From Narthecium ossifragum (Eukaryota > Streptophyta > Magnoliopsida > Dioscoreales > Nartheciaceae), in NCBI GenBank assembly GCA_963920575.1, contig OY986975.1, forward strand, positions 18,941,897 through 19,005,896: a DNA stretch of 64,000 nt. The letters run 5' to 3'. Positions 6,520 through 59,228 of this stretch are shown here, in pieces. Position 1 is the stretch's first letter. Every line of letters starts with the position of its first letter. Position numbers and translations under genes: made by a program. Under the pieces are notes generated by a model. It did not search any database and was not told the origin of the DNA. It saw only the letters and a program-made list of their open reading frames with translations.

Positions 6520-6970
6520 GTCTAAAACTATGAAGATGGTTTATTAAATAAGGGTAGTATGGAGATTTAACTGTAAGAGTATAATGGGTAATATGAAAAA
6601 TATTTTGACGCGGTGCACATAACAAAAATTGTAGTGCATATAAAATTTCCTTTTTTCTCTCTTTGGTACCTTCTTTAGTATTACATATATACCCCTATAG
6701 ATATTAAAAAACTTCAAAACATACCCTCATGTTCTCACGACATTAAAATAAAAAACCTATGAAATGATCATTTTATTTTTTATTGATATTTATCAGGACT
6801 TAGTTCACAGGTTAAGAGTAAAACAGTCATTTTACAAGGCTGCTTTTTAACACTGAGATAGAGGTTTTTTTTTCTTTTTTTTTGGCTTAGTTGAGCCTGG
6901 GCATTACATCAGACATATGCTCGTCAACAGCTCCTAAACGAGCCCTAAGGGTAATATCATTAGCAATAGA
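6520..6970. other. AT-rich intergenic DNA
   Basis: No gene, repeat ends or RNA structure recognised. Confidence 0.5.
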
Positions 6971-6974
6971 GGAG

Positions 6975-7068
6975 TGATACTATGCCGACGCCACGTGGGT
7001 CGGCTGTTTGCCGACCCGACGTGGCGCACAGCGATTGGCTACTCGCTTGCTGATGTGGCATAGTATCA
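6975..7068. mobile_element. 94-bp MITE with TGATACTATGCC ends
   Basis: The segment begins TGATACTATGCC and ends with its exact reverse complement GGCATAGTATCA. The interior carries CCACGTGGGTCGGC and GCCGACCCGACGTGGC, a second nested palindrome. The core recurs at 8748-8886 in inverse orientation and, diverged, at 403-535. Too short to code; no clear target duplication. Confidence 0.55.
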
Positions 7069-7177
7069 TGGATCTATATTATGATAGATCCATCCACATC
7101 GTATCGCATCGTCCCGACACGGTGATCACCTCGAACGCCACCGCCGACACAGCTACGTCGAGTTCCCTTTACCGACG

Positions 7178-7663
7178 ATGAGGACCTCCGTCATCTCTGC
7201 CGCCGTTAGCCTCATCGTTGTTTTGCTGCTCGCAGTCGCGTCGGCGGGGTCACTGCTGCTGTTCCTGGATCATCGGAAGGAGAGCTCCTTATCGGATCCT
7301 GGAGTAAATACCTTTTGGGCTGGAGCCGGAAGCGGTGGAGGCTGTGTTGCCGGCGAGGGTCGACTGGAAGGAGAGCGGAAGCGGGAGGAGGAGAAGAAAG
7401 GGGAGACGTGGCACTGCGACGAGCGTGTTTACGGTCGGTTCTGGCGGCAGTTCCGGCTGCCGGACAACGCCGACGTGGACTCGATCTTCGCTAAGTTGGA
7501 TAACGGCGTGCTCACGGTGACTTTTCCCAAGCTGTCGCCGGAGAAGTTCAAGGGGCACAGGGTGGTCAGCATCGTTGAGACGGACTGTGATAAGCTTGCC
7601 GGCGCGGCGGAGACGATCAGCGAAAAGATCACCGGAGAAGGCGGCAAGAAGGAGGAGCTCTAA
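7178..7663 (+). pseudogene. ER-type small heat-shock protein with internal deletion
   Basis: The frame opens with a hydrophobic signal-peptide-like N-terminus (residues 1-25) and GSLLLFLDH, and ends with the C-terminal half of an alpha-crystallin domain: [49 protein letters not shown], and a KKEEL tail resembling an ER-retention signal. The first half of the crystallin domain is missing. In the second frame (about 7295-7372) the original middle is still legible: RILE, a TAA where a Gln codon is expected, [22 protein letters not shown], and then the deletion. So an upstream indel changed the frame, and the deletion at about 7370 (joining DWKE to GERKRE across a shared GGAG) happened to restore it. 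A shortened secreted protein could in theory be made, but chaperone activity is unlikely. Confidence 0.75.
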
Positions 7664-7760
7664 TGGGTGGTCAACAAGGGTATTAAAAAACACGTCCGCA
7701 AGCATTAAAAAACTGTATACTTGATGCTTCGGCAAGAAGGAGGAGCTCTAATGGGTGGCC
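7640..7760 (+). repeat. Duplicated 3' end of the small heat-shock pseudogene
   Basis: The block GGCAAGAAGGAGGAGCTCTA with the following ATGGGTGG occurs at 7642-7669 and again at 7731-7758, so the last codons and stop were duplicated about 89 bp downstream. Confidence 0.8.
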
Positions 7761-8608
7761 AAAATGATCCGTCGGGAAGTCGACGCCGTGGAAGAGTTGC
7801 AGAGGTGGAGGCGTTGGTGGATGCAACCATGTAAAGAACAAGGGATCTCAGAGCTGGTTGATGGAAAAGGCTGCGTTCTTGAAGGAGGGGTGCTTAGGAA
7901 ATACTTGATGCTTAAGGGGGAGGCATGAGACATGGTTATGTATATATATTTTTTAAAAGAAATTTAATTAAGTCCAGCGGCTGAGACTGGACAAACAATG
8001 CAAACAAAGAAACAGAACAAAAACAAAGCTAGGAAAACGCAGAGGAGAAGAAAGCAAAAAAGAAAAAAGAAACGCGAAACCGATAACAAGGAGATCCCTC
8101 GTACGGAAGCACCCGTCAAGGAGATATCCTCAAAGCTTCCCGACGGGCAAGACCAGCAACACAGCGAACCCATTCACCGTCCTGAAGATATGGGCGGAGT
8201 TGATCCAGATGGATCCTCATAACCTGGTCATGTATAGCTTTTTGTCACTGATTCCATGGTTGGATTCCAGATATTACATTAAATTTGTTCATCTATGAAA
8301 CTTGTGTAATTTCTGTCTCAGTATCCATGGTGTAATGCTATATGCGTGCATGGCAGGGCTGTCGGCTCTGTCTCAGTAAGGCTTGAGGCGATGATCGATG
8401 TCAAGAACTTGGGCTTTAAGAAGGTGTTGGAGAAGGCATTGCGTCTGAAGGCGACGGCATGGAACTTCTGGCATCGGTGGTTCGATTTTGTGGTAATGGG
8501 AGGGCTGGCAGTGAGAAAGACTCCATCGTGGAGAGCAGCAACGGCGTGGAGCTCCCGGAGTTGGAATAGCGATTGCGAGATGGCGTTGACTTCCCGACGG
8601 ATCATTTT
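7761..8608. repeat. Inverted repeat flanking unidentified coding-like fragments
   Basis: A 21-bp sequence, AAAATGATCCGTCGGGAAGT plus C, at 7761-7781 is exactly reversed at 8588-8608 and both continue with similar bases (GACGCCGT / GGCGTT). Both arms encode KMIRREV(D/N)A when read inward on opposite strands. The interior (8346-8700) has open frames on both strands but no family I recognise. It may be an inverted duplication of one gene fragment or the ends of a transposon. Confidence 0.5.
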
Positions 8609-8747
8609 GACGCTATATCTCATCGGAGGCCCAAACCGAGTAGTCGTCGATGTCCGAGAAGGTGAATGGCCCGCTGGTGATCTACGGCGTTGCCGTCAGA
8701 TTCTTCTGCATCTCACGTGTCTCTGAGTTCTAGCAAAAAAGACATGT

Positions 8748-8886
8748 CTATGAATAACGAGAAATGATTTCACGCTGACGCCACGCGTGGGGGGAGTGGG
8801 GTCCCTTTCACGTGCGTGCACCCGCCACGTCGGGTCGGCAAACAGCCGACCCACATGGCGTCGGCATAGAAACATTTCTCTTAGCA
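8748..8886 (-). mobile_element. MITE with GAGAAATG ends, related to 6975-7068
   Basis: The segment starts GAGAAATGATTTCACGCTGA and ends CGTCGGCATAGAAACATTTCTC, giving short inverted ends (GAGAAATG.TTTC). Its right half reversed matches the core of the 6975 element (GCCGACGCCA.GTGGGTCGGC and TGTTTGCCGACCCGACGTGG). Confidence 0.45.
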
Positions 8887-9019
8887 ATATTATTAAAGGT
8901 ACGAGAGATATGTACAAATATAGCCCCCTTAGGTTCGCACTCAAACTCTGTAGTTTCCTAAGAATCGGGATGCAGCTCCACATCCCATACCTGATACCTC
9001 TCTTCCATTCAGGAAGGGT

Positions 9020-18055: not shown

Positions 18056-18064
18056 TTATCTTTA

Positions 18065-18490
18065 GGGTGCCTCTATCTACACCGCGGAAATGTCTAAGGA
18101 CATCGCTATTTTTTTGTTTTCCCTAAACTACCATTATTCACACTTTCGATTTTTAAAACCCGAACACTAAGTCGACTTTTAAAAACCGAACATTAACTAC
18201 ATATTCGACTTTTTATATCTGAACAGAAACCAAAAGTTTGATTTTTTAAAGCCGAACACTGCCTTCGTTATTAAAAACTAAAAGATTCGGTTTTTAAAAA
18301 CTGAAAAAAAACACAGTAGTTCGGTTTTTAAAAACCGAACTGCTCCGACGGGAGAGAGAGAGAGAGGGGGGGGGGGGGGCGAGATAGAGGGAGAAAGAGA
18401 GGGGGAAAGAGGTGAGGGCTTCGGGAGGTTGCATGCAAGCTTAATTTAGCCGCCCGGAGAGATCCACGAGGGAGATCGGCGAGAGAGAGA

Positions 18491-18555
<65 letters not shown>

Positions 18556-18773
18556 GCGGTGGCTTCGGACATGGTGTTCAACCACAGAGAGCAGGCCGGT
18601 GGGGGCGACGTAGGGGTTGTAGGCTGGCGACGGGCAATGCCAGTGGGAGAGAGAGAGAGGGTGATCGGGGAGAGAGAGAGGGAGGGAGGGAGGTTAAAAA
18701 CAAGAATAGTTTAGAAAATAAAAAAAAATAAGCGATGCCCTAAGTAATTAGGACGGTGTAGATAGAGGCACTC
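18065..18773. mobile_element. Mutator-like MITE with 9-bp target duplication
   Basis: The ends are GGGTGCCTCTATCTACACCG and, reversed from the right, GAGTGCCTCTATCTACACCG; similarity continues inward (CATCGCTATTTTTTTGTTTTC against CATCGCTTATTTTTTTTTATTTTC), so the inverted repeats are about 55 bp. The flanks carry a perfect 9-bp duplication, TTATCTTTA, at 18056-18064 and 18774-18782. The 709-bp interior is non-coding: palindromic GTTCGGTTTTTAAAAACCGA units at left and a long (GA)n tract (18480-18548). Confidence 0.85.
18480..18552. repeat. (GA)n microsatellite
   Basis: A long GA/AG run inside the Mutator-like element; the Leu/Ser-rich open frame on the opposite strand is an artefact of it. 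Confidence 0.95.
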
Positions 18774-18799
18774 TTATCTTTATTCCTCTACGATGATAC

Positions 18800-20345: not shown

Positions 20346-20746
20346 TGTATTGTATATGCTATGATTATGTATACTAATCAGTGCTCATATAATATTAATT
20401 TAAAATAAAAAAACAAAGCTCAGAGAGACGTCAACGTGCACGTCATTGAGCATTATTTAGACACTCCTCGTCGCGTTTGACCAAACTCTTCCAAAGACTA
20501 TTATTAGCACACCATATCGGCATGTCCTTGTATTTATTTTATATATATAATTCAGGGGGCTTTCTTGCCTCTTATCTCAATCCCTTTCGATCTTTCATAT
20601 AAATGAGTAGTGATTGCCAGCCCATTATTAGCACACCATATATAATCGTTACTTGTTAGTCATGACTTGGCTTCCATGGTCGTTACCTAACCTTATTTTC
20701 GAAAGATATGAGTTACCACCTTTCTATATATTCTATAGAATAATTC

Positions 20747-21691
20747 AAATTACACTTTATACCTCATAGTTTCATAAATTAACATTTTAATATCTTCATC
20801 TTTCAAAATCACATAAAATTATTTTATAGTTTCAAAACCTAACAATTTAGTCCAGGTCGTCAAACACCGTTAGGTTGAGTCACGGAAAACCGGTCACGTG
20901 ACACACATGTGACTGGCCAAATTACACTTTCATACTCTATAGTTTTATGGATTAGCATTCTACTACCCTCATCTTCCAAAATCACATAAAACTACTCTAT
21001 AGTTTTAAAATATGGCAATTTAATCCGTGTCGTCAAACGTCGTTAGGATGAGTCATGGAAAACCGGTCATGTGAAACACATGTGACCGGTTTTCATCCAT
21101 TCCCCGCGAGCGAAACTGCTTTAGCGGAGACCGATGACGCCCAAGGTGAAGGCGGCGATGGGGTTCCAGTGGAGCACGGCGATGCCAAAGGTGACGACAG
21201 CGGAGATGATGGCGGTGACTTGGATGGCGATGAAGCTGGTATGACGAACGTCACCATGAAATAAGGGAACGTGAGGACCGCCTTCTGCCATGCGTCCTCC
21301 ACCACCACCACCACCTTCTCCACCGTCTCATCACCTGTCACGTATGTATGAAAACCAGTCACGTGCATGTTGGGTTTTCCGTGACTCATCCTAACGGTGT
21401 TTGACGACCTAAACTAAATTACAAGGTTTTGAAACTATAAGATTGTTTTATATGATTTTGGAAGATGATGGTACTAGAATACTAATCCATGAAACTATAG
21501 GGTATTAAAGTGTAATTTGGCCGATCACATGGCACTCACGTGACCGGTTTTCTATAACTCATCCTGACAGCGTTTGACAACCCTGACTAAATTGCCAGGT
21601 TTTGAAACTATATGGTAGTTTTATGTGATTTTGAAAAAGGAGGGTAATAGAATGCTAATTCATGAAATAATAGGATATTAAAGTGTAATTT
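20747..21691. mobile_element. Long-TIR element with doubled ends and a captured fragment
   Basis: Each end carries two tandem copies of a sequence of about 185 bp. Left copies start AAATTACACTTTATACCTCA (20747) and AAATTACACTTTCATACTCT (20922) and run through ATCACATAAAA, CGTCAAACACCGTTAGG and GAAAACCGGTCACGTGA. The right side has two inverted copies ending near 21520 and at 21691. Such long inverted repeats suggest a Mutator-like element. Host flanks GAATAATTC / AACCTATTC are only a weak 9-bp match. The interior (21095-21340) holds a coding-like fragment. Confidence 0.65.
21095..21345 (-). pseudogene. Membrane-protein-like exon fragment inside the long-TIR element
   Basis: On the minus strand one frame reads GDETVEKVVVVVEDAWQKAV and LTFPYFMVTFVIP; after a frame change it continues SFIAIQVTAIISAVVTFGIA and VLHWNPIAAFTLGVIGLR, then stops. 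The second part looks like two hydrophobic helices. Composition is GC-rich with codon-like periodicity, unlike the AT-rich arms. I do not recognise the family. Confidence 0.4.
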
Positions 21692-21699
21692 AACCTATT

Positions 21700-22700
21700 C
21701 CATAAGATCCTAGAAATATAGTACTCTTTTATTTGACATAAAAGTCATCAATTTAGTTGTCATCGTGCATGAAGTCTTGCATCTCACCATCTCACCAACC
21801 CTCTGTTTTTAGACAGGTCATTTTGACTTATAAGTTATAACCCTTCTAATATGTGATTTTGTATAGCGCAGGGAACGATATGCGTCACACCTAATAATAA
21901 AGCCGGCAATTATGATACTATATAAAAAAAATTGAGTATGATGATCAAGAATGTGCCTAAGTATGAGAAAATAAGGTCGGCAATTATCGACACTCTATCA
22001 AAGAAGTAAATAGTATGACGTGTATTGTTTAAAATTATACCAAATCAGAGGTGATATAAAGTCATAATAACGCATACTTTTATCTTATATATTCTCTTAT
22101 ATAGACTTAGTGATAAGATATTATGATATCTACCTCTATGGAGATCACAAGTTTTGTCCTCGATGGTAGAAACTTATGCAGGAAATTAAGTTGATATATT
22201 TATGGCGTAAAAAAATAAACCTTAATAATTAGAGACCAATGAAACAAGGGCCATAGTAAACATTTTTAAACATTATTATATTTATATTCACCACTAAATG
22301 GCATGTTCTTGTGGGACAAGGGCCATAATAACAAGTAACAACTATTTCTTTCTTTTTTTCCAAGTTCAATCAATGTAGGCCCATCAGGGGGAGCAAATAC
22401 CGGGACAGATGCAGGCATTCAAAATTATATGTGACATGCCCGTCTATAACAGCATGCATGTCTCAAAGTTCAAATCTAATGCAAGTATACCATTCAAAAA
22501 ATGGTATTTATCTCAATACCCTCCTAAAATCTGAATTTGTAAATATACACTCCCAAAGGGATTTTTTTAATTTTTTTTTTGTGTGTATACCCATCGCTGT
22601 TCTCAAAACTAGTGTAATCAAGATTTGGTCAACATTAAGCCTGATCATTCAAATCTTGATTAAACTAGTACATAAGATTTGTATTATATATCTGTTCATC
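21700..22700. other. AT-rich intergenic DNA
   Basis: No supported gene or element termini. Confidence 0.5.
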
Positions 22701-34343: not shown

Positions 34344-35560
34344 TCGGAATTCATGCAAGCAGTTTAAGTTTCCTCTTAATAGAACCCCTCTCTCAAGAGC
34401 CCCATAAACTTTCCTCTTAATAGAGAGGTCCCTTTTTAAGCTATTGTGGGCCTTATCTTATCACTCATATCACCCTCTTTGCATGTAGAATGGCACCGAC
34501 TCCACTGCTATTGCAAGATCTTTCCATCGCAATACAAAACTCACCCGTTAACCTCGGGTTAACAAAGAGGATCTCTGGAGGGTACATCTCCAGGCAGATC
34601 ATAGTTACAAAACTACAAAGCCAAAACGCGAGCACACCTCGCCACCCAATCTGCCCCATAGTTACATTCCCTAGGTATATATACAGCTTTAACATCAGTA
34701 AACTTTCCCATCCATGCCCAGAGTTCTTGAAGAACACCAACTACCTCTGCTGGTTTTGATTTGAAACAGCTAGTGAAACAATTGAAGAAACTGGATGATG
34801 GAACTTATGCCCAGTGGCAGCGTTATGGTGATAAAGGTTCAGCAATATTGCTCAGATGAATCGCCTGAGTCGCATCAGGCAAAGAGCTCTTATTTTAGCA
34901 AGTTTATGAAATGGAAGAGAAACACCAGTGCATGTACGTAACTACAAGAGGCGTTTGTTGGAGCCGTTTTGTTGAAAACGGAGGCCAATATGCTACTCCG
35001 AAGACTACTTTTATATCTGGAATCATAAGTTACTGCTCGTAGCAAGAACCTCTAATCAGGCCAGCAGTGCAGCAGCGACACCCCTCTCAATCAGCAAACA
35101 TCTGAACTGAGCCAATCTTGGTGTTACTTGCCTTGGGGTTTCCGGCGAGTCTCTCAAAGGCTTTCCAGGGCGCTCTTTAGTCGCAAAAGTATGTGAACAA
35201 GGTGAGTTACATGATGAGGAATTTTAGCAAAATATGAGTCACATTGGTGATCAATTGACAGACCATAAGCATTTCTATCATTTCTTTTTCCTCCTATAGT
35301 TAGCAATAGAAATAACGCGGCACGGTCTTGGGGCACAATTTGCTGCCAAACTTGTTGATTGTCTCCTTTCTGCTTAAGTTGTTTGACTTGATCTTTTACC
35401 CACTTAGTCTAATGACAGGTATAATGCTGCTAGGTATTGTACATGTCTATCTTCTCTGTAACATATAGCTAGTTTGCCCTCTTTGTGTTCAGTTTAAGCT
35501 GTTATCGGAGTGTGGGCGATAGTTGGTTTGCTTAATCTGAAATGCAAAATTTAATATTTA
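34344..35560 (+). repeat. PARG 3' flank, copy A of a segmental duplication
   Basis: From about 34767 to 35300 the sequence (AGCTAGTGAAACAATTGAAG, GCCAATCTTGGTGTTACTTG, AAAAGTATGTGAACAAGGTG) is repeated with small changes at 48878-49420. Exon-like text is visible (ETYAQWQRYGDKGSA-like) but I do not recognise a gene. The stretch 34370-34745 is unique to copy A. Confidence 0.65.
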
Positions 35561-36200: not shown

Positions 36201-37911
36201 TTTTTTTTCACAAAACATAAATCAATTATTTCAATAAAAATTCATAATAAAATCCTAGATTCAATTTCTTAATTTTTTTAAGCACATGGAACAATATACT
36301 TGTTGACAACATGAATATTGTCATAAATATTTTAATATCATTTAATAATAAAATCCTAAATTCGATTTCTTAATTTTTTTCAAGCACATTAAACAACATG
36401 TTTGTTGACGGCATGAATATTGTCATAAAAACAAGTACAAAACATATGCGATTACTGAACTATGGTTAGGGCCAAGGGATAATTTTCTACTTTGACAAAT
36501 TATAATTAGACGGAGCAAAGTATTAAACACGGAGAATCCACTATAATAACAAAGTCGAGTTAGGATTCAAAAAATTAAGAAAGTAAATAAAAATCGCATA
36601 AGAAATAAGAAATGATTAGCCGCATCTTTAGAGTGAGCTTGTCATTGAGCATTTGAATGTCTTTATTGTGCCAAATGTCCGGTCTTAGACTATATTAATA
36701 ATAAACTCGTTCTCACCCACTGGTTTAAGCTTTTGAGTTGAGTGGTTAAAATTCTTTCATGATATCACAGTGAGTTTATTATTTATATAATCTAGCACTC
36801 AATCCTAGTTTTGATTTCTTAATTTTTTTTTCAAGCACATGGAACAACATGGTTGTTGACACCATGAATACAGTCATAAAAGACTGACGATATTAAGTTC
36901 AAAAGATATACACTGTGGCTAGGGCCAAGGAATAATTTTCAACTTGACAAATTATAGTTAGACAAAAGCAAAGTATCCAACACAGGAAAATCCACCGCGA
37001 CAACAAAGTCGAGTTAGGATGCAAAATATTAAAAAAAAAAATAAAAAATAGCAAAAGAAATGATTACATGCATCTTTGGAGTGACCTTGCCGTTGAACAT
37101 ATCAATGTCTTTATTGTGCCAAATGTTCAGTCTTAGACTATGTTAATAATAAACCAGTCCTCACTTAACGATTTAAGCTTTTGGGTTGAGTGATTAAATT
37201 TTTTTATGGTATCAGAGCGAGTTTATTATTAATATAGTTAGACAGAAGCAAAGTATCCAATATAGGAAAATCCAACACGACAACAAAGTCGAGTTAGGAT
37301 GCAAAAAATTAAGAAAGTAAGCAAAAATGGCAAAAGAAATGATTACACACATCTTTGGAGTGAGCTTGTGATTGAACATTTCAATGTCTTTACCGTGCCA
37401 AATGTTCAGTCTTAGACTATATTAATAATAAACTCGCCCCCACTCAACGATTTAAGCTTTTGGGTTGAGTGGTTAAATTTCTTTTTTGGTATTAGAGCGA
37501 GTTTATTATTAATATAATCGAACACTCAATCTAGATTTGATTTCTTAATTTTTTTTTTTCAAACACATAGAACAACATGTTTGTTGACAATATGAATATT
37601 GTCATAAAGACCCACGATATTAAGTACAAAATATATGCGATTATCCAACTGTGGCTAAGTTCAAGCAACAATTTTCTAATTTGATAAATTGTAGTTAGAC
37701 AGAAGCAAATATCAAACACTGGAAAATCCACTTCGATAACAAAGTCGAGTTAGGATGTAAAAAATCAAGAAAGTAAGCAAAAATGACAAAAGAAATGATT
37801 GCATGCATCTTTGGAGTAAGCTTGTCATTGAACATTTCAATGTCTTTATTGTGCCAAGTGTTCAGTCTTAGGCTATATTAATAATAAACTCACCATCACT
37901 CAAGAAAGTCG

Positions 37912-43690: not shown

Positions 43691-44690
43691 TTCACCCTCT
43701 TCATTGAATCCTTTCATGCCAAGCCTCTTCCTTCACCCTCCCAATTCCCAAATCCCCTCCTCTAGTCCTCCGTGACTCCGTCGCCTCCGAGTCTCCGACC
43801 ACCGGGCCACGGTCACCCCGCCGCCGGCTGCAAGAGGTTGGCACTTGTCTTTATGTTGCATTTGTCTTGCTTATATCAGTTTTCATAGATTTTAAGTCCC
43901 GGACTTATGGTCTTAGGAGACCTTCAATCCTGCCCTTCTTGACTGTATTTGCCATTGTGGTCAGTGGTCAGTGGTCACTCCTGTATACAACAATCTGGTT
44001 GTTGATCATCCTGCGCTTACTGCTCATCCATGAACTCTTGCTGGTTGTAATCTTTTTAGCTATCTTTGTCTTACTGTTCATCATATGATTCATATCTCTG
44101 AGTTTACTATATTTTCTCTGCCAATCAATTTTTAGCTTATAGTTGCATACTTGCATAGTCTGCATGGCCCCATAGTGGAGGACGATCTGTAAGAGTTATA
44201 AATACAAGGGGCTTTATTAATATGAAAGAATCATTCTAGTTTTACTTTCCAAGTATTGGTGGCATCATTTTTCGTGTGAAATGCCAGTCCATAATGTTGC
44301 GGGGGAGTCTAGAATTCATAAGAGAATGCTAGAATTCATATGATTCATATAGTCCATTCAACGCTGAAGTTTATTGACTTCGAATTGCAGGGTTTGAACT
44401 TTGTGCTTTCACTTGCATGGATTGAGACCGTGCTGCATCTAGGGCTGGGGAAAATTGAGCACTGCTTGGTTGAGTTCTTATTAACTTCTCTAGAGATAAT
44501 CAGGCGAGGGCACTGACAGGTTAGATCATCAATGAACGCTCTTCATATGTCTGAAAATTTAGAATAATGTTCTCATGCTTTGTTGATATGCTTTGATTTT
44601 TTTACGAGTTACCGTAGCATTTGGTTTATTGGTTGGATTTTAATATACTCAATGTTTGTGACTTTGGCTAGGTTTTACTTGAATTATTAT

Positions 44691-47063
44691 ATGGATAGAT
44701 ATTTTAAGAGAAAGTCAGTGGGTGATTCATCTCAAAATCTTGAGGCACAATCTTCTAACTTTAAAAAGACTTGTGAGAAACTGAAAGTTGATGCTGCAAA
44801 TTTTCCTTCTGATCCTGGACTTCGACCTCCAATTTGGAGTTATAATGTGAACGATAGGGATGAATATCGAAGGGTCTATTTACAAAAGGGTCCTTGTCAA
44901 CCTCGGACTCATGACTTTTCATATTCATCTTTTGGGGATCATCGTCGAAGGTTCAATCCAGAATGGTTCAATGATTTCTCATCTTGGTTGGAGTATAGTG
45001 TGGATAAAGATGCAGCATTTTGCTTATTTTGTTATCTCTTCAAACGAGAATCAGATTGTTCTTCTGATCAAGGCGGTGGTGATTCTTTTGTGGGGAAAGG
45101 TTTTCGAACTTGGAAAAAGAAGGAAAAGTTGAGAGCTCATGAGGGAAGACATGATAGTCTTCACAATGAAGCAAGGAAAAAATGTGAAGATCTAATGAAG
45201 CAATCGCAAGGTATTCAACACATGTTCATGAGCAAGACAGACAAGGATAAAAAGGAATATCGAGCCTTAGTAACTGCAGCTGTTGATTGTGTTCGATTTC
45301 TTTTACGGCAAGGACTTTCATTTCGTGGTCACGACGAAGATGAAAGTTCACTAAATCAAGGAAATTATTTGGGGCTTTTTCATTTTCTTGCTGCACACAA
45401 TGAAGAAGTAAAAAATGTGTCATTTTCTAATGCTTCAGCAAGTTTGCAAATGACTTCACCGAAAGTGCAAAAAGATATATGTCGGGCAGCTGCTGTGGAG
45501 ACATTGAATATTATCATGAAAGAGATAGGTGATTCTTATTTTTCTGTCCTAGTTGACGAATCTCGTGATGTTTCAATAAAAGAACAGATGGCTGTTGCAT
45601 TGAGATATGTTGACAAGAATGGGCATGTCATCGAGCGCTTTGTGGGTCTTAAGCATGTCACCTCCACCACTGCCGTTTCACTTAAAGCTGGTTTAGAGGA
45701 TTTGCTTGCTCAACATAAGTTAAGCATATCAAGAATCCGTGGTCAAGGTTATGATGGAGCAAGTAATATGCAGGGAGAGTTTAATGGGTTGAAATCACTT
45801 ATTTTGAGGGATAATCCATATGCTTTTTATGTGCATTGTTTTGCTCATCAACTACAATTAGCATTAGTGGCGGTTGCAAAAAAACACTTTCAAGTGAAGG
45901 CACTATTTGAATTTGTTTCTATGATTGTTAATACTGTTGGAGCATCTTGTAAACGGAGCGATGCTCTTAAAGCAATCCAACATGAGGAGATTCTTAAAGA
46001 ACTCAAAGATGGAAACTTATTTAGTGGACAAGGATTGAATCAAGAAACTAGCTTGCAGCGTTCTGGTGACACTCGTTGGGGTTCTCTTTATACTACATTG
46101 ATCAGTCTTCGACATATGTACTCTTCGGTGCTAAAAGTACTTGAAATTGTTATGGAAGATGGGATTCATGATCCAAAATCAATTGAAGCTAGTGTCTTGT
46201 TGGATCAGATGCATTCTTTTGACTTCATATTCAGTATGCATTTAATGATAAATATTCTTGGAGTTACTAATGAATTGTCACTGGCATTACAAAGGAGAGA
46301 CCAGGATATTGACAATGCAATGAGATTGGTCAGCATATCTAAGTTGCTTTTGCAAAAAATGAGAGGTGAAGGATGGCATTCTTTATTAGCTAATGTTTCT
46401 TCTTTTTGTAACAAATTTGAGGTTGATGTGCCAAACATGGAGGATAAGTTTAAAACTCGTGAGCGTCCGAAACGGGGAGTTGAAGAAATGACAAATGAGG
46501 AGCATTATCGTATTGGGGTATTCTATACTATAGTGGATTGGCAGATTCAAGAGCTTGATAATCGATTTTCTGAAGCAAGTACAGAGTTACTTTGTTGTGT
46601 TGGAGCTCTTAATCCGAGTGACTCATTCTCTGCTTTCAGTAAGGATAAGTTGCTTCATCTTGCTCAATTATATCGAGATGATTTCTCCCCGATTGATCTT
46701 GTGGTTCTTGAGAACCAACTTGAAGTTTATATTACCAATATGCGAACTAGCAGTATATTTCTAGAAGTACATGGCATTACTGGACTTGCTGAAAAATTGG
46801 TGCAAACAAAAAATCATTTGGTATATCCTTTGGTATATAGGCTGATTACCTTGGCATTGACTTTACCTGTTGCGACAGCGACTGTTGAAAGAGCATTTTC
46901 AGCAATGAAGACTGTGAAACATCGATTGCGCAATCGAATGGGAGATGAATGGCTCAATGATTGCTTGATTCCATACATTGAGAAAGAAATCTTTGATCAA
47001 GTTCCCAATGAAGTTATCATTCAGTATTACCAAAATATGAAGACTCGAAAAAAACAGTTGTAA
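44691..47063 (+). CDS. hAT transposase, TTF zinc finger / ZMYM1-like
   Basis: The frame is open upstream to 44580, but ATG 44691 gives the family's usual start MDRYFKRKSVGDSSQ and 790 residues. Order of parts: a TTF-type zinc finger (about 60-160; FNDFSSWLEYSVDKDAAFCL, FCYLFKR), a DUF4371-type region (about 170-400; DICRAAAVETLNIIMKEIGD, SYFSVLVDESRDVSIKEQMA with the first catalytic Asp in VDES, GQGYDGASNMQGEFNGLKSL with the second, HCFAHQLQLALVAVAKKH), a long helical insertion, and a C-terminal hAT dimerisation domain (LTLPVATATVERAFSAMKTV, KHRLRNRMGDEWLNDCLI; conserved Trp and ERAFSAMK). It would cut and paste the flanking element in the nucleus. There are no internal stops or frameshifts. 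Confidence 0.93.
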   Translation: MDRYFKRKSVGDSSQNLEAQSSNFKKTCEKLKVDAANFPSDPGLRPPIWSYNVNDRDEYRRVYLQKGPCQPRTHDFSYSSFGDHRRRFNPEWFNDFSSWLEYSVDKDAAFCLFCYLFKRESDCSSDQGGGDSFVGKGFRTWKKKEKLRAHEGRHDSLHNEARKKCEDLMKQSQGIQHMFMSKTDKDKKEYRALVTAAVDCVRFLLRQGLSFRGHDEDESSLNQGNYLGLFHFLAAHNEEVKNVSFSNASASLQMTSPKVQKDICRAAAVETLNIIMKEIGDSYFSVLVDESRDVSIKEQMAVALRYVDKNGHVIERFVGLKHVTSTTAVSLKAGLEDLLAQHKLSISRIRGQGYDGASNMQGEFNGLKSLILRDNPYAFYVHCFAHQLQLALVAVAKKHFQVKALFEFVSMIVNTVGASCKRSDALKAIQHEEILKELKDGNLFSGQGLNQETSLQRSGDTRWGSLYTTLISLRHMYSSVLKVLEIVMEDGIHDPKSIEASVLLDQMHSFDFIFSMHLMINILGVTNELSLALQRRDQDIDNAMRLVSISKLLLQKMRGEGWHSLLANVSSFCNKFEVDVPNMEDKFKTRERPKRGVEEMTNEEHYRIGVFYTIVDWQIQELDNRFSEASTELLCCVGALNPSDSFSAFSKDKLLHLAQLYRDDFSPIDLVVLENQLEVYITNMRTSSIFLEVHGITGLAEKLVQTKNHLVYPLVYRLITLALTLPVATATVERAFSAMKTVKHRLRNRMGDEWLNDCLIPYIEKEIFDQVPNEVIIQYYQNMKTRKKQL

Positions 47064-48877: not shown

Positions 48878-49431
48878 TCAACTGGTTTCAGCTTGAGACA
48901 GCTAGGGAAACAATTGAAGAAACTGGACGTGAAACTTATGCTCAGTGGCGGCATTATGGCGATAATTAAGGTTCACCAAGATTGCTCAGGTGAACTGCCT
49001 GACTCGCATCAGGCAGAAAGGTCTTATTCTAGCAAGTTATGACATGGAAGAGAGGAAGAGAAACAACAATGTATGTCTGTAACTACAATAGGCATTTGTT
49101 GGAGCCATTTTGTGGGAAATGGAGGCCAATATGCTACTTCACAGACTATTTTTATACGTGGAATCAGAAGCTACTGCTTGTAGCAAAAACCTGGTCCTGA
49201 TGGAGCAGATCGACCTAATCTGGCCAGCGGTGCAGCAGCAACACCCGTGTCAGCAGGCATCTGAAGTGAGCCAATCTTGGTGTTACTTGCCTTGGGCAAG
49301 CTTTCTCAAGGCTGTCCACAGGCGCTCTTTAGTCACAAAAGTATGTGAACAAGGTGATGAAGTGTCAGACAGTAAGCATTTCTGTTAATTCTTTTTCCTC
49401 CTTCTATAATAAGTAATAAAACTAATAAGAC
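48878..49431 (+). repeat. Copy B of the PARG 3' flank, cut by a solo LTR
   Basis: Aligns with 34767-35300 through AGACAGCTAGGGAAACAATT, GAGCCAATCTTGGTGTTACT and CAAAAGTATGTGAACAAGGT. It ends where the LTR begins at 49432. Confidence 0.75.
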
Positions 49432-50493
49432 TGTCACGCCCCGCTTCAATTAAATACAAAATATCCTAAAATTTCTAAAAAATTTCGACATGACCCTTAA
49501 ACACAGGTACGTGATCACACAATCTACAACCTGTCAACAGATACAAACCACACCTCCTATGATATTTTATCTGGTATTTACAACATTCATCATAATTCAG
49601 GGGACATCATCACCCCATCTCATTCAATTACATCTTTCACAATACATAAGAGTGAATAATTTTCCAATTACAACATAACAAGGCCACGAGACTATAATAT
49701 ACAATTTCTCCAAAATTTTCAACATACACGAGCGTCAAATACACAAATTGAGAGTTAAGGTTTAGTACAAAATAAAATTGGGATACAACTCACAACCCTC
49801 TACCTAGTACAAAGCTAACTCTCAATCAATAAGTACAAGACTGACACCTGATCACCACTGACCACCTCGATGTGGTGTACTGATCTCGGGCCTACCTCAT
49901 GCACAACAAAAACCCAAGAAAAAATGAGCTCGAAAGCCCAGTAGGAGTCACCTGACGACAATCTAGGACACTGGTGTACACCAAACCTATCCCAATATAC
50001 TGATTCTAGTATGGTCTGGCTAGTCTGGGCAGTGTTACATGCACAACACCGCGTCCGACGGCCAACGCTCATCCAGACCCCTATAGACTCTATACCGGTT
50101 TCAGTATACTAGTATAGGCAACACAACCGACACACCCACCTATCCTAGTTTATTGATCCTAGTATGGTCTGGCTAGTCTAGGCAGTCTTATATGCATAGC
50201 ACAGCGTTCGGCCGCCAACGCTCACCCAGACATCTATAGACTCTATACTGGCCTTAGTATACCAGTATAGGTCCAACATCCTCAGTTAGATCAAATCCTC
50301 AAGTCAAGTCAAAGTCCTTGATCGATATATGGAGATCAAAATCCATCCGTCAAGTCGTCGACATATCCCCTAGACTCTGACTAGTCTAGCTACATGTTCT
50401 GACTAGACCCAATCACAATCTCTGTCCTAAGACAATCTGACATTCCTAGCATGTATGCATAAACCAGATACATAATAATAATCAAATATAATA

Positions 50494-51949
50494 GGGGTAA
50501 AGTATGCGTTTGATACCTGGATTTTCAGGCAAATTTTTATGTGATACCCGTGTTTTCAAAAGTAAGCATTGAATACCTATGTTTCTCGAACTATTTTTAA
50601 TTGATGCCTCCGTCCACCTACCGTTCGCCGGTCTAACGGCGGCCCGAGCGAACCGGTCACGTGCCTACACCTTCAAGATCATCTTCGACAGCATGTCGTC
50701 CTTCCTGAGATGGGGATGATTCAGGGTCGGTATCTAGATCTCCATTGCCGCTGCTGATCTGGTCGAGGATGAGCACGAGTCCCATAGCGAAAGCTGCATC
50801 AAAGCGGGGACGGAGGCAGAGGCTGAACACGTCCTTTCCCAGCACTACATGAACGGACTCGTCCACCTTCCGCTTGATCTCCACCACCAACACTGCCCCC
50901 GCCGCCCTATCTTCTGTTGTACTCCCATCCACTTGATCTACATGCCCTCCTCCCTCATAAAGCACCCTGCAGCACCTCTGGGCAAAGGAGCCCTCAATGC
51001 GATACTCATCAGCTCCGCCATCAACACAGTGAACCTCCGCCGTGATGTCACCGCGCTCTCCGCCGAAGATGGAGGACCTCCGCACCGTGAAGAGGGGCTT
51101 CTGCCCTTCCGTCCTCTCTCCAAGGAATCCCTCCCATCGCTGATGTAGGCTCGGCCACTGCATGCGTACGATCACGTTAATTTCTTATTGTATTTAGAGT
51201 GGAATATAACACGCAATCTGACAAGTATGAGCTGATCCTGGATTATAATGTAACTCGCCAATACGAAATATATAGAAGAAAAAGGCCAAGAAGAACATCA
51301 ACAATTAATAGTGTTGTCTAATTAATTAAGGAACCTGAGAAAGGGAAATACCTTCCTGCGGACAGTGAGGATTGGAGCACCGGAGGGGTCCATGAGGACG
51401 AGCTGGTCGGCGATGGTGGGACCTCGTCGGGTGTACATATTGACGCGGAAGATGAGATCCCCGGAGGCGTGATCGTAGGCGGCGTACCCGTCGCTGGGGT
51501 AGAATAGGTACGTCTTCCGCACGGTGAGCTCCCGCTGCCCAACACCGCAGTAGACCTCTCCCACTACCACCCTCGTCCCATCGCAGTCGACGATCGGCTC
51601 GTCCTTCATCATTTCACACCGGTCTGCACTACCCAGCCCAAGAACTTTTTCAACAATCGGAACAGTGAGAGCCCGGAGAGGAGGAGAGATGATAATAATC
51701 AAGGAGCTAGAGGCGGTAGGATCAGCTGAGATGTCCGTAGCTAGAGATGACGAGGTACGGTGTTTACTGAGAGAGAAAAATAGCGAAACTCGAGAGAGGA
51801 GGCGCCGTTAAACCGGCAGACGGCAGGTGGACAGAGACATCAATTAAAAATGATTCGAGAAACATAGGTATTCAATGCTTACTTTTGAAAACACGGGTAT
51901 CACATAAAAATTTGCCTGAAAACCCAGGTAGTAAACGCATACTTTACCC
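50494..51949. mobile_element. Mutator-like element carrying a LURP-one-related gene (Pack-MULE type)
   Basis: Terminal inverted repeats of about 148 bp (50494-50642 and 51802-51949) are about 90% identical: GGGTAAAGTATGCGTTT, ACCTGG.TTTTCAGGCAAAT, TTTTATGTGATACCCGTG, TTTTCAAAAGTAAGCATTGA, ATACCTATGTTTCTCGAA, ATTTTTAATTGATG, then GTCCACCT.CCGT...GCCGGT. A perfect 9-bp target duplication AATATAATA lies at 50485-50493 and 51950-51958, which is diagnostic for the Mutator superfamily. No transposase is present; the interior is filled by a two-exon host gene on the minus strand. It sits inside a solo LTR and so is younger than that LTR. Confidence 0.93.
50657..51738 (-). CDS. LURP-one-related (LOR, DUF567) protein inside the Mutator-like element
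   Basis: Two exons on the minus strand, 51352-51738 and 50657-51157, with GT/AG borders and phase 0. Exon 1 encodes SSSLIIIISPPLRALTVPIV, GLGSADRCEMM, RKTYLFYPSDGYAAYDHASG, DLIFRVNMYTRR and LVLMDPSGAPILTVRRK. Exon 2 encodes WPSLHQRWEGFLGERTEGQK, PLFTVRRSSIFG, EYRIEGSFAQRCC, VVEIKRKVDESVHVVLGKDV and FSLCLRPRFDAAFAMGLVLI. This is a full tubby-like LOR fold; LURP1 itself is linked to defence against oomycetes. The expected start codon is ACG (51738; ACGGACATC where ATGGACATC is likely), and the next in-frame ATG is well inside (CEMM). So either initiation is non-AUG or the gene is damaged at one base. The stop lies about 15 bp from the left inverted repeat. Confidence 0.85.
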
Positions 51950-53344
51950 AATATAATAATTCATAAGTTCTCATCAATGCATACAATACAAGAATACCAT
52001 AGTATAATATTTCATAACACAATTAAGCAAATAGAGGGCTCAGCTAACCCAACAGATCATAACATATCATGCAACCATCATCGCAAATGTATAGCTATAT
52101 AACATGCCATACAATCACAACATTGCATCACATATAAACATAACATATAAAAAACAATCATACAATTCCTAATATGAGGTAACTCCTACCTCAAAAGGCG
52201 ATTGATGTGAAATCCCTAAGCATTGGGGTCCACGTCACGCTCCGAACCTGACGACTACCCACCTGATCGCCTAAAACACAAGAACAAGGAAAGCGGTCAG
52301 GTAGGGCTCCAAACGCGATTCAATCTACAAAAATTAGATATAACCCGGAAAACCGGTCGAAAAGACCCGACAAAGACCGAAATCAGATGTCGGCTGCGCG
52401 ACGACTCCGCCCACGGTGGACCAGCCGCCCGACGTTCCCAACATGGCGTCGACGCTCGACCGCGTCACGGCTACAAATTGCCGCTCCTGCGACGGAACCC
52501 ACCGCGCCAGCGACGGAATCTGCCGCGTCTACGATGCCCCAGCCCCGGTGACGCGCACCCTTCCACCAAGAAGGGCTGTCGGAGCTCCGCCGAAGCTCCA
52601 CTGATCTCGGGCTTAACTGCCGGATAGCCACCACGAAGACGAGGGGAGCTTGATCGCTGCCCCAAGCTCCGGGTCCCCCAAGGGAGATCAACGGCCACGG
52701 CTAGAGGAAAGCCGGCCGGACCTTCGCCGGAATCCATGCCATAGAAACGCTCGGACAGGGCTGCCCCGGACCACGGGGGCGGGGGGGGAGGGGGGGTGGG
52801 TTTCCTTCTCCGGCGCTGCAGTCGCCGAGGGAGGTCCCCGACGTCGTCCATGACATTTCTCCGGCGGTCCAACGCCGGAAAAACCACGAAGCCCCACCAA
52901 AAACCCACCGGAAAATACCCAGAAAAGGAAGAGATCGGAGGGGAAAGAAGAGAGGAGCTCACCTGAGCCAAGGAGGAGATGAAATCCGACGGACACCTCG
53001 CCGGATCTACCCTTTTTCCCGGCGAGTTCCACCTCTCCTCCCGGTTTCTTCCTCCTTTCTTCTCTTCCTTCTCCGGCACCGGCGATCTATACCTCCACCC
53101 ACTCCCTCTCCCTTCCCCTCCCTTCTCTCTCCCTTGATCTCTCTCTGGATCTCTCTCTCTCCCAAGCTGGTTCAAATGAGGTGAGGGTGAAGAGATAGAA
53201 AGAAATATCGGGGAGAAGAAGAAGAGAAGCGGGGGTAGGTGGGGATTTTTTCGGAAAACCCCCCGCAAGACTCAAAATTACGCGAAAGCCCTCTAATTTT
53301 ACCAAAAAACCCCAGTAATCTTACAATTAGGCCCTTACAGAGAC

Positions 53345-53880
53345 ATTTATTCCACCAATTTTAGGATGCCGAGACATTATGAGGCATACAAAAAGAAAGA
53401 AACCAAATGCCCAGAAGCCAAAAAGAGCAATCTGTGTTGTGTCCCTTGTCTTATGATGTGCCTATTCTGCATTTATTTTCCATGCTAAAGGTTCTTTCAT
53501 GCCAAGATAGCAACTTTGTGAGATCTCCAATGTAATTAGTTAAGCCTGTCAGTCTTATCTTACGATATCTCTTACGATCATGCTACTAGATGATGAATGT
53601 TACTAGCTTAAAGACTAAACTAGATAAAAGGTTGCATGACACCCGCAAATTTGTATAAGATTGTAGCTTATTTCGTTAATCAAAATCAGATACATGAGGA
53701 ATATGTATACCAAACTAAGCTTCAGCAACTAAGTTAGGTAATCTATGATCAATTGTGGCAGTTGTAACAATTGAGAATACAATTGACTCCTGTAAACCTC
53801 ATAACGAACTTAACATAAATGATTGTTTGACAAGAGGATGTGCAAATCTTTCATATGTTAACAACAAAATGTACATCAAG
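53345..53880. other. Spacer after the solo LTR
   Basis: AT-rich, no element ends or genes recognised. Confidence 0.4.
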
Positions 53881-58077: not shown

Positions 58078-59228
58078 TCATATATCGTTGATCATAGAAG
58101 GTTTAGGATAAAACCAGGATTTTCTAAAACCAGGTCTATACTTGGCAAGATGAGCTTCCACTCTTGCCCCGTCTAAAAAAGAATACACTTCAAAAGTGTT
58201 GAGCCTCCATTCTGAAGAAAAGTAGATGCAATCTCTCATGACCCCCTTCGTCCTTGCGGCATCCAGCACCTGGCATCCACCAAGGAAAGATGCGAACAGC
58301 GTCCGGCCATTCAAGCTCTCAATCCTCACCCACTCCATCGCCGCCATGTCCAAACGCATGACCACGAACCGGCTACCAGGACCTTTGTCATACCATCCTT
58401 TGTCCGACAATACCAGTAGCTCCCCATCCCAATCCCCCACACATAGACAACATGCACGCCGCTGCTCCAATGTGAAGGGAAATTTCTGAAACTTCAAGGG
58501 GCCGGGGCCGATGAGATGCATGAAGTAGAGATAACCGCCCAAGGATCTGGTATACAACGTGTTCTTGATAACAATGGCACGTCGCACCATGTAATCGAGC
58601 TGATCATCAATAGGTGGAGTCGAATATGGCGGCCATGTACAGTCGGCCCAGTCCGCTTTGGTGAGCCTTCCATGTTCATCTGGAGATGGGAAGCGCCGGC
58701 GCCGGACTTATCGAACAATATCAGCCGGCATTCCGTACAACCGGGTTGCACCCATAGAACTCCGATATTGAAAGGACGAGGGAAGTCCGGTAACCTGCCC
58801 ATATGTCTTCGATTGGTGATGTATGTGATTATCGCGATCAACTCCTTTCTCGAGTGGAAGACGTAATTGTCGTGCCGTTGGGAGAGATACAGTGATCTTT
58901 TCTGCATCGGAGATCTGCGCGGTTTCAGGCGCCTCCGTTCGGTGATGTCATAGAAAGTATAGTCGGTATGGAACACGTCCCCCTTGCCTTCCATGAGCAG
59001 TGGAGGTAGCGATACCATGAAGTCGGCCATGGCTTCCTTGTATACTGACCTCCATGCTTGACATGTCCTGCCGTACGCCACGTAGGTCGGCACGCTGCTT
59101 AGCTTCATGGCGATGGTGTGGAGTACCACGTCGGGAAGATCCGACCATCGCCTCTTCTTATTCTCATTGCCACTGCCGTCGTCATCGTTGGTTATCTTCT
59201 TGTAGTTGTTCGACAGCACTTGCCCCAT
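58078..59228 (-). pseudogene. KIB-type F-box protein (DUF295) with one frameshift
   Basis: ATG 59228 opens a frame starting MGQVLSNNYKKITNDDDGSG. An F-box lies at about 27-65 (WSDLPDVVLHTIAMKLSSVP, GRTCQAWRSVYKEA). A beta-propeller part follows: PPLLMEGKGDVFHTDYTFYD, RSLYLSQRHDNYVF, FNIGVLWVQPGCTECRLILF. In this frame the family is lost after about 58660; the next frame carries on with GRLTKADWADCTWPPYSTPP, DYMVRRAIVIKNTLYTRSLG, LLVLSDKGWYDKGPGSRFVV, WVRIESLNGRTLFASFLGGC and SEWRLNTFEVYSFLDG to the stop at 58078. One indel between about 58660 and 58710 explains this. The full product would be about 380 residues, a normal KIB length. F-box proteins bring substrates to SCF ubiquitin ligases. 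It may be a young pseudogene or a base-call error. Confidence 0.8.

Follow-up and report, generated by a model that had tools for sequence, protein, structure and literature searches.

The unit at positions 50494–51949 of the window (the whole 64-kb stretch of DNA analysed) is very probably a Pack-MULE, i.e. a non-autonomous Mutator-like element, that has captured the complete coding region of a monocot LOR5/LOR12-type gene (LOR, LURP-one-related) as DNA. An earlier reading made from the sequence only had proposed that a Mutator-like element had packaged a LOR gene here, and the terminal repeats, the target duplication, the intact two-exon frame and the full domain bear this out. The assignment to the Mutator-like family is a purely structural one, and as such it is supported.

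Structure and ends of the element

The element (1456 bp, with no strand assigned) is bounded by two terminal inverted repeats of 147 bp, close to the ∼148 bp estimated earlier. The left repeat (50495–50641, plus strand) adjoins the 3′ side of the LOR stop codon, while the right repeat (51803–51949, minus strand) lies upstream of the gene and is 93% complementary to the left one; aligned without gaps they match at 136 of the 147 positions, and 10 of the 11 mismatches are transitions. Directly outside both ends stands a perfect, AT-rich, 9-bp target site duplication, AATATAATA (50485–50493 and 51950–51958, likewise unstranded), in agreement with the sequence-only reading and with the ∼9–11 bp expected of a Mutator-like element. 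A chance inverted repeat was ruled out by the length and identity of the repeats together with this duplication. The symmetric ends of the element are GGGTAAAG...CTTTACCC, the left end bearing a single G (50494) more than the right. An alternative reading of the ends is an 8-bp duplication, ATATAATA, on either side of 50494–51950, with the outermost base mismatched. In the interior of the element the G+C content is 54%; the repeat has 42%, one flank 41% and the other 48%.

The window was scanned for exact direct repeats of 8, 9 or 10 bp lying immediately outside inverted ends of 30 bp in which 21 or more positions match. At 8 bp there were three places (the LOR element included), at 9 bp another three and at 10 bp no place at all; it is because of the extra G at 50494 that the LOR element appears in the 8-bp list and not in the strict 9-bp list. 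Applied to block-shuffled windows, 10 per setting, the same scan gave no places. The six places found need not all be transposons. At 20734–21704 there is a unit with long inverted arms (316 nt at 80% identity); each arm is made of about two 173-bp repeats, so that tandem copies lie within the inverted repeat.

The intact frame, which resembles that of a normal gene, would also be seen in a resident LOR gene on either side of which the same repeat had inserted independently and in opposite orientations. However, one perfect 9-bp duplication brackets the entire 1456-bp unit, and the gene is tightly packed, with 15 bp to one repeat and 190 bp to the other, which makes such a double insertion highly improbable. 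No other copy of the 147-bp repeat was found within the 64-kb window. An empty site was sought with the joined flanks (49000–50493 plus 51959–53500), and no junction-spanning match was present elsewhere in the window; the left flank alone, which contains a tandem pair at 49985–50278, matched 34866–35205 at 77%, and the right flank gave short, weak matches near 18.5 and 26.8 kb. Between positions 36244 and 43188 of the window, long tandem arrays are clustered together with dispersed copies, the units being ∼280–450 bp in length. The element had no match in a plasmid collection, a 39-base stretch of the repeat had no exact match in prokaryote genome contigs and a 23-base stretch had none in viral contigs, plant DNA not being expected in any of these collections. 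A search of 49500–53000 against Rfam at gathering thresholds returned no match.

The LOR gene between the repeats

The gene is read on the minus strand as two coding exons, exon 1 at 51352–51612 (beginning ATGATGAAG) and exon 2 at 50657–51157 (including the stop codon), separated by a 194-bp GT-AG intron in phase 0 (51158–51351; 34% G+C). The spliced product is 253 aa long, with a single stop, at its end. There were 100 candidate GT-AG pairs by which a long open frame is preserved; of these, the pair chosen gave the best alignment with a date palm relative, and it was also best against a yam relative among the six candidate pairs listed. Since the intron is retained with a clean junction, capture must have occurred at the DNA level; a processed gene copy was ruled out by the presence of the intron. 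The earlier description of a LOR gene with its intron and both splice sites was accurate, as was the placing of the stop codon about 15 bp from one repeat (15 bp were found). The start, by contrast, had been put ∼64 bp from the other repeat, and this has to be corrected: the first in-frame ATG is at 51612, 190 bp from the right repeat, and there is no ATG in any frame between the two. An in-frame ATG within the repeat itself (51840) is followed by a stop after 10 codons. The 190 bp separating the repeat from the first in-frame ATG (51613–51802, minus strand) are presumed to be a 5′ leader. Several relatives start within some 10–15 residues of the same place, and others further upstream.

The spliced product matched the Pfam LOR model PF04525 over positions 2–187 of 187 (135.1 bits, cut-off 24.5; E = 2.8e-39), so that the whole fold, as had been suspected, appears to be present. 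The solved LOR structure 1zxu (At5g01750) was matched as well (query 15–222 against residues 26–211 of the 217 in the chain; E = 9.7e-20). In the spliced product and in the ORFs of the two exons, no family other than LOR exceeded its Pfam cut-off; the scan of the exon ORFs also gave one sub-threshold match (E = 0.27). The sequence-only reading had called the gene nearly complete, which was right as to the packaging of a LOR gene but understated its integrity, given that it has its start and stop codons, the two splice sites and the domain in full. A single intron is reported to be common among LOR genes, being found in 15 of 36 in soybean (PMC8624885).

When ∼5.8 billion proteins were searched, 575 of 1857 candidates matched at E ≤0.001. 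Among the 120 listed, the best-scoring relatives were proteins of Dioscorea zingiberensis and D. alata (66% identity over 81–82% of the query), and by the names of the best matches they are monocot LOR5/LOR12-type proteins; in two alignments of relatives, Typha reached 69% and 68% identity. With 66% identity, the best-scoring protein is too distant to point to a donor, and the age of the capture is inseparable from older divergence. In a 27-row tree the copy in the element fell within the group containing all monocot rows (support 92/89, below the level starred by the tool), but no sister relationship was supported. The branch leading to it (0.48) was the second longest end branch of the 27 (median 0.22; that of Brachypodium was the longest, 0.85), which could reflect relaxed constraint or merely an unsampled lineage. 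When the protein was aligned with 20 relatives picked from the 120 listed matches, it departed at 3 of the 47 columns invariant in those relatives and at 5 of the 39 nearly invariant ones. For 17 of the 20 relatives the corresponding leave-one-out count of departures was 0–2, and for the remaining three it was 3 or 4. Judged by these columns, the copy in the element is conserved like a gene, yet at the looser end. The long history that it shares with relatives was a constrained one, but all of that history may lie in the donor gene.

Origin, age and possible expression of the captured gene

The following series of events would account for the locus. A non-autonomous Mutator-like element very probably took up a complete monocot LOR5/LOR12-type coding region as DNA, intron included, the donor presumably being a host LOR gene in a monocot, and inserted into an AT-rich site. 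Only 1161 bp lie between the repeats, leaving no room for a transposase beside the LOR gene; since none fits inside the element, the transposase was presumably supplied from elsewhere, and a related autonomous element would be its likely source. If the gene is transcribed, the start would lie either within the repeat upstream of it or within the presumed captured leader of 190 bp. The capture may be so recent that the intact frame can be accounted for without selection.

Neutral decay was simulated with 600 copies per rate, assuming a transition bias and an indel rate of one tenth that of substitution. The copies that remained intact were 40% at 1% change per site, 14% at 2% and 2.5% at 3.75%; when indels were ignored, 83%, 67% and 48% (respectively) were still free of stops. 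The highest rate corresponds to the 7.5% difference between the two repeats, i.e. ∼3.75% per arm, if these were once identical. In elements of this type, however, the two repeats are not necessarily identical at the outset, so their divergence does not provide a clock. An intact frame is therefore not by itself sufficient evidence of selection.

The CpG observed/expected ratio of the element was 0.95; the flanks gave 0.47 (left) and 0.90 (right), and the window as a whole 0.77. The element thus bears no sign of long methylation in its base composition, though the right flank is about as high. Promoters have been reported in the repeats of maize MuDR and of Pack-MULEs (PMC3310237), and expression of the LOR gene driven from the repeat of the element is possible by analogy. 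Within the Pack-MULE reading, the captured gene might have been kept by selection as a working gene transcribed from the repeat. Such maintenance would agree with the intact 253-codon frame and splice sites, with the high CpG of the element and with the published role of repeats as promoters of Pack-MULE contents; but a recent capture would look alike, many simulated neutral copies stay intact, the CpG of the right flank is similarly high and the end branch is long, all of which leaves selection a rather unlikely explanation. It is equally doubtful, though again compatible with a Pack-MULE, that the element is silenced and acts mainly via small RNAs against the donor LOR gene; maize Pack-MULEs, and further elements that capture genes, are reported to behave in this way (PMC13317346), but the element shows no loss of CpG. 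Going further, one might imagine the element to be one of a family of transposons by which a functional LOR gene is spread together with its leader and a promoter in the repeat, forming a selected, transposon-borne gene family in the lineage; this we consider very unlikely. A role in defence has been reported for AtLURP1 and AtLOR1, which belong to one LOR subgroup whose other members are without reported function (PMC8624885). The best matches of the gene in the element carry the names LOR5 and LOR12 instead. The earlier suggestion that the element may mobilise a defence-family gene under promoter activity from its own repeat is thus conjectural as to present movement, promoter and defence role.

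Comparison with other elements

A second gene-carrying Mutator-like element (1912 bp) was found at 6969–8880 of the window (6960–8889 with its duplications). Like the LOR element, it has inverted repeats, a perfect 9-bp duplication on both sides (TTAGCAATA) and host-type gene sequence, which indicates that gene capture is not unique to the LOR locus. Its repeats, however, are different (58 bp, 53 of 58 positions matched), and its coding region seems not to be intact. The HSP20-like ORF at 7178–7663 begins to match its Pfam profile only at position 35 of 102, and a stretch in another frame, recognised by eye from a motif, is what we take to be the upstream part. The captured HSP20-like gene therefore looks broken, judging from its reading frames, and provides a local contrast to the intact LOR element. 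A third MULE-like unit, of 709 bp (18065–18773; 18056–18782 with its duplications), has the duplication TTATCTTTA and imperfect inverted ends; only short ORFs, partly of simple-repeat sequence, were seen in it.

Two further features of the window can be mentioned. An open ORF of 827 aa at 44580–47063 specifies a hAT-type transposase with DUF4371 and hAT dimerisation domains, the best match of which was a protein from Dendrobium nobile (64% identity; scoring was confined to the 7971 candidates with most words in common). At 58078–59228, overlapping minus-strand ORFs in different frames contain a KIB1-4 beta-propeller piece (above the Pfam cut-off) and an F-box-like piece (below it), an arrangement that would suggest either an intron or a broken gene; the KIB-type F-box ORF had no match among 151 candidate proteins.

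No report of a LURP-one gene in a Pack-MULE was found in the literature searched, although many subscription papers lay outside the search, so that absence of such a report is unproven; among the papers retrieved for LURP-one-related genes together with transposons, none was about capture, as judged by title and the start of the abstract. Elements of similar build have been described. The barley element Hvu_Abermu resembles the LOR element in its long repeats (138–145 bp), its GGG...CCC ends and its TA-rich duplications, which are of 9 bp in 267 of 278 elements (PMC9168764). It differs in its size (8,176 bp) and in being seemingly autonomous (PMC9168764); the likeness drawn here is one of structure. 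The KIU/Kaonashi MULEs, with their Ulp1 domain, are also Mutator-like elements carrying host-derived coding sequence; they are, however, non-TIR MULEs in which an old, conserved capture has placed the domain inside a gene of the element (PMC13317346). With Pack-MULEs, the LOR element shares long inverted repeats, a 9-bp AT-rich duplication, a length of 1–2 kb and captured host coding DNA (PMC3310237, PMC4858842, PMC8903248). Three rows of a tomato Pack-MULE table, for example, list elements of 944–1372 bp with outer repeats 87–94% identical and AT-rich duplications (PMC3310237).

The difference lies in the cargo. Pack-MULEs are often described as carrying gene fragments, and a review states that captured sequences are often fragments of this kind and usually non-functional pseudogenes (PMC13317346), whereas the LOR element contains the complete coding region of one gene. 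A complete, spliceable coding region between repeats offers a clean case for studying if elements of this type are able to give rise to functional copies of genes. Published definitions do admit whole genes, Pack-MULEs being carriers of ‘genes or gene fragments’ (PMC3310237) or of ‘intact or partial gene fragments’ (PMC4858842), which places the LOR element inside the definition; a complete captured coding region is probably less common than fragments, but within a known kind.
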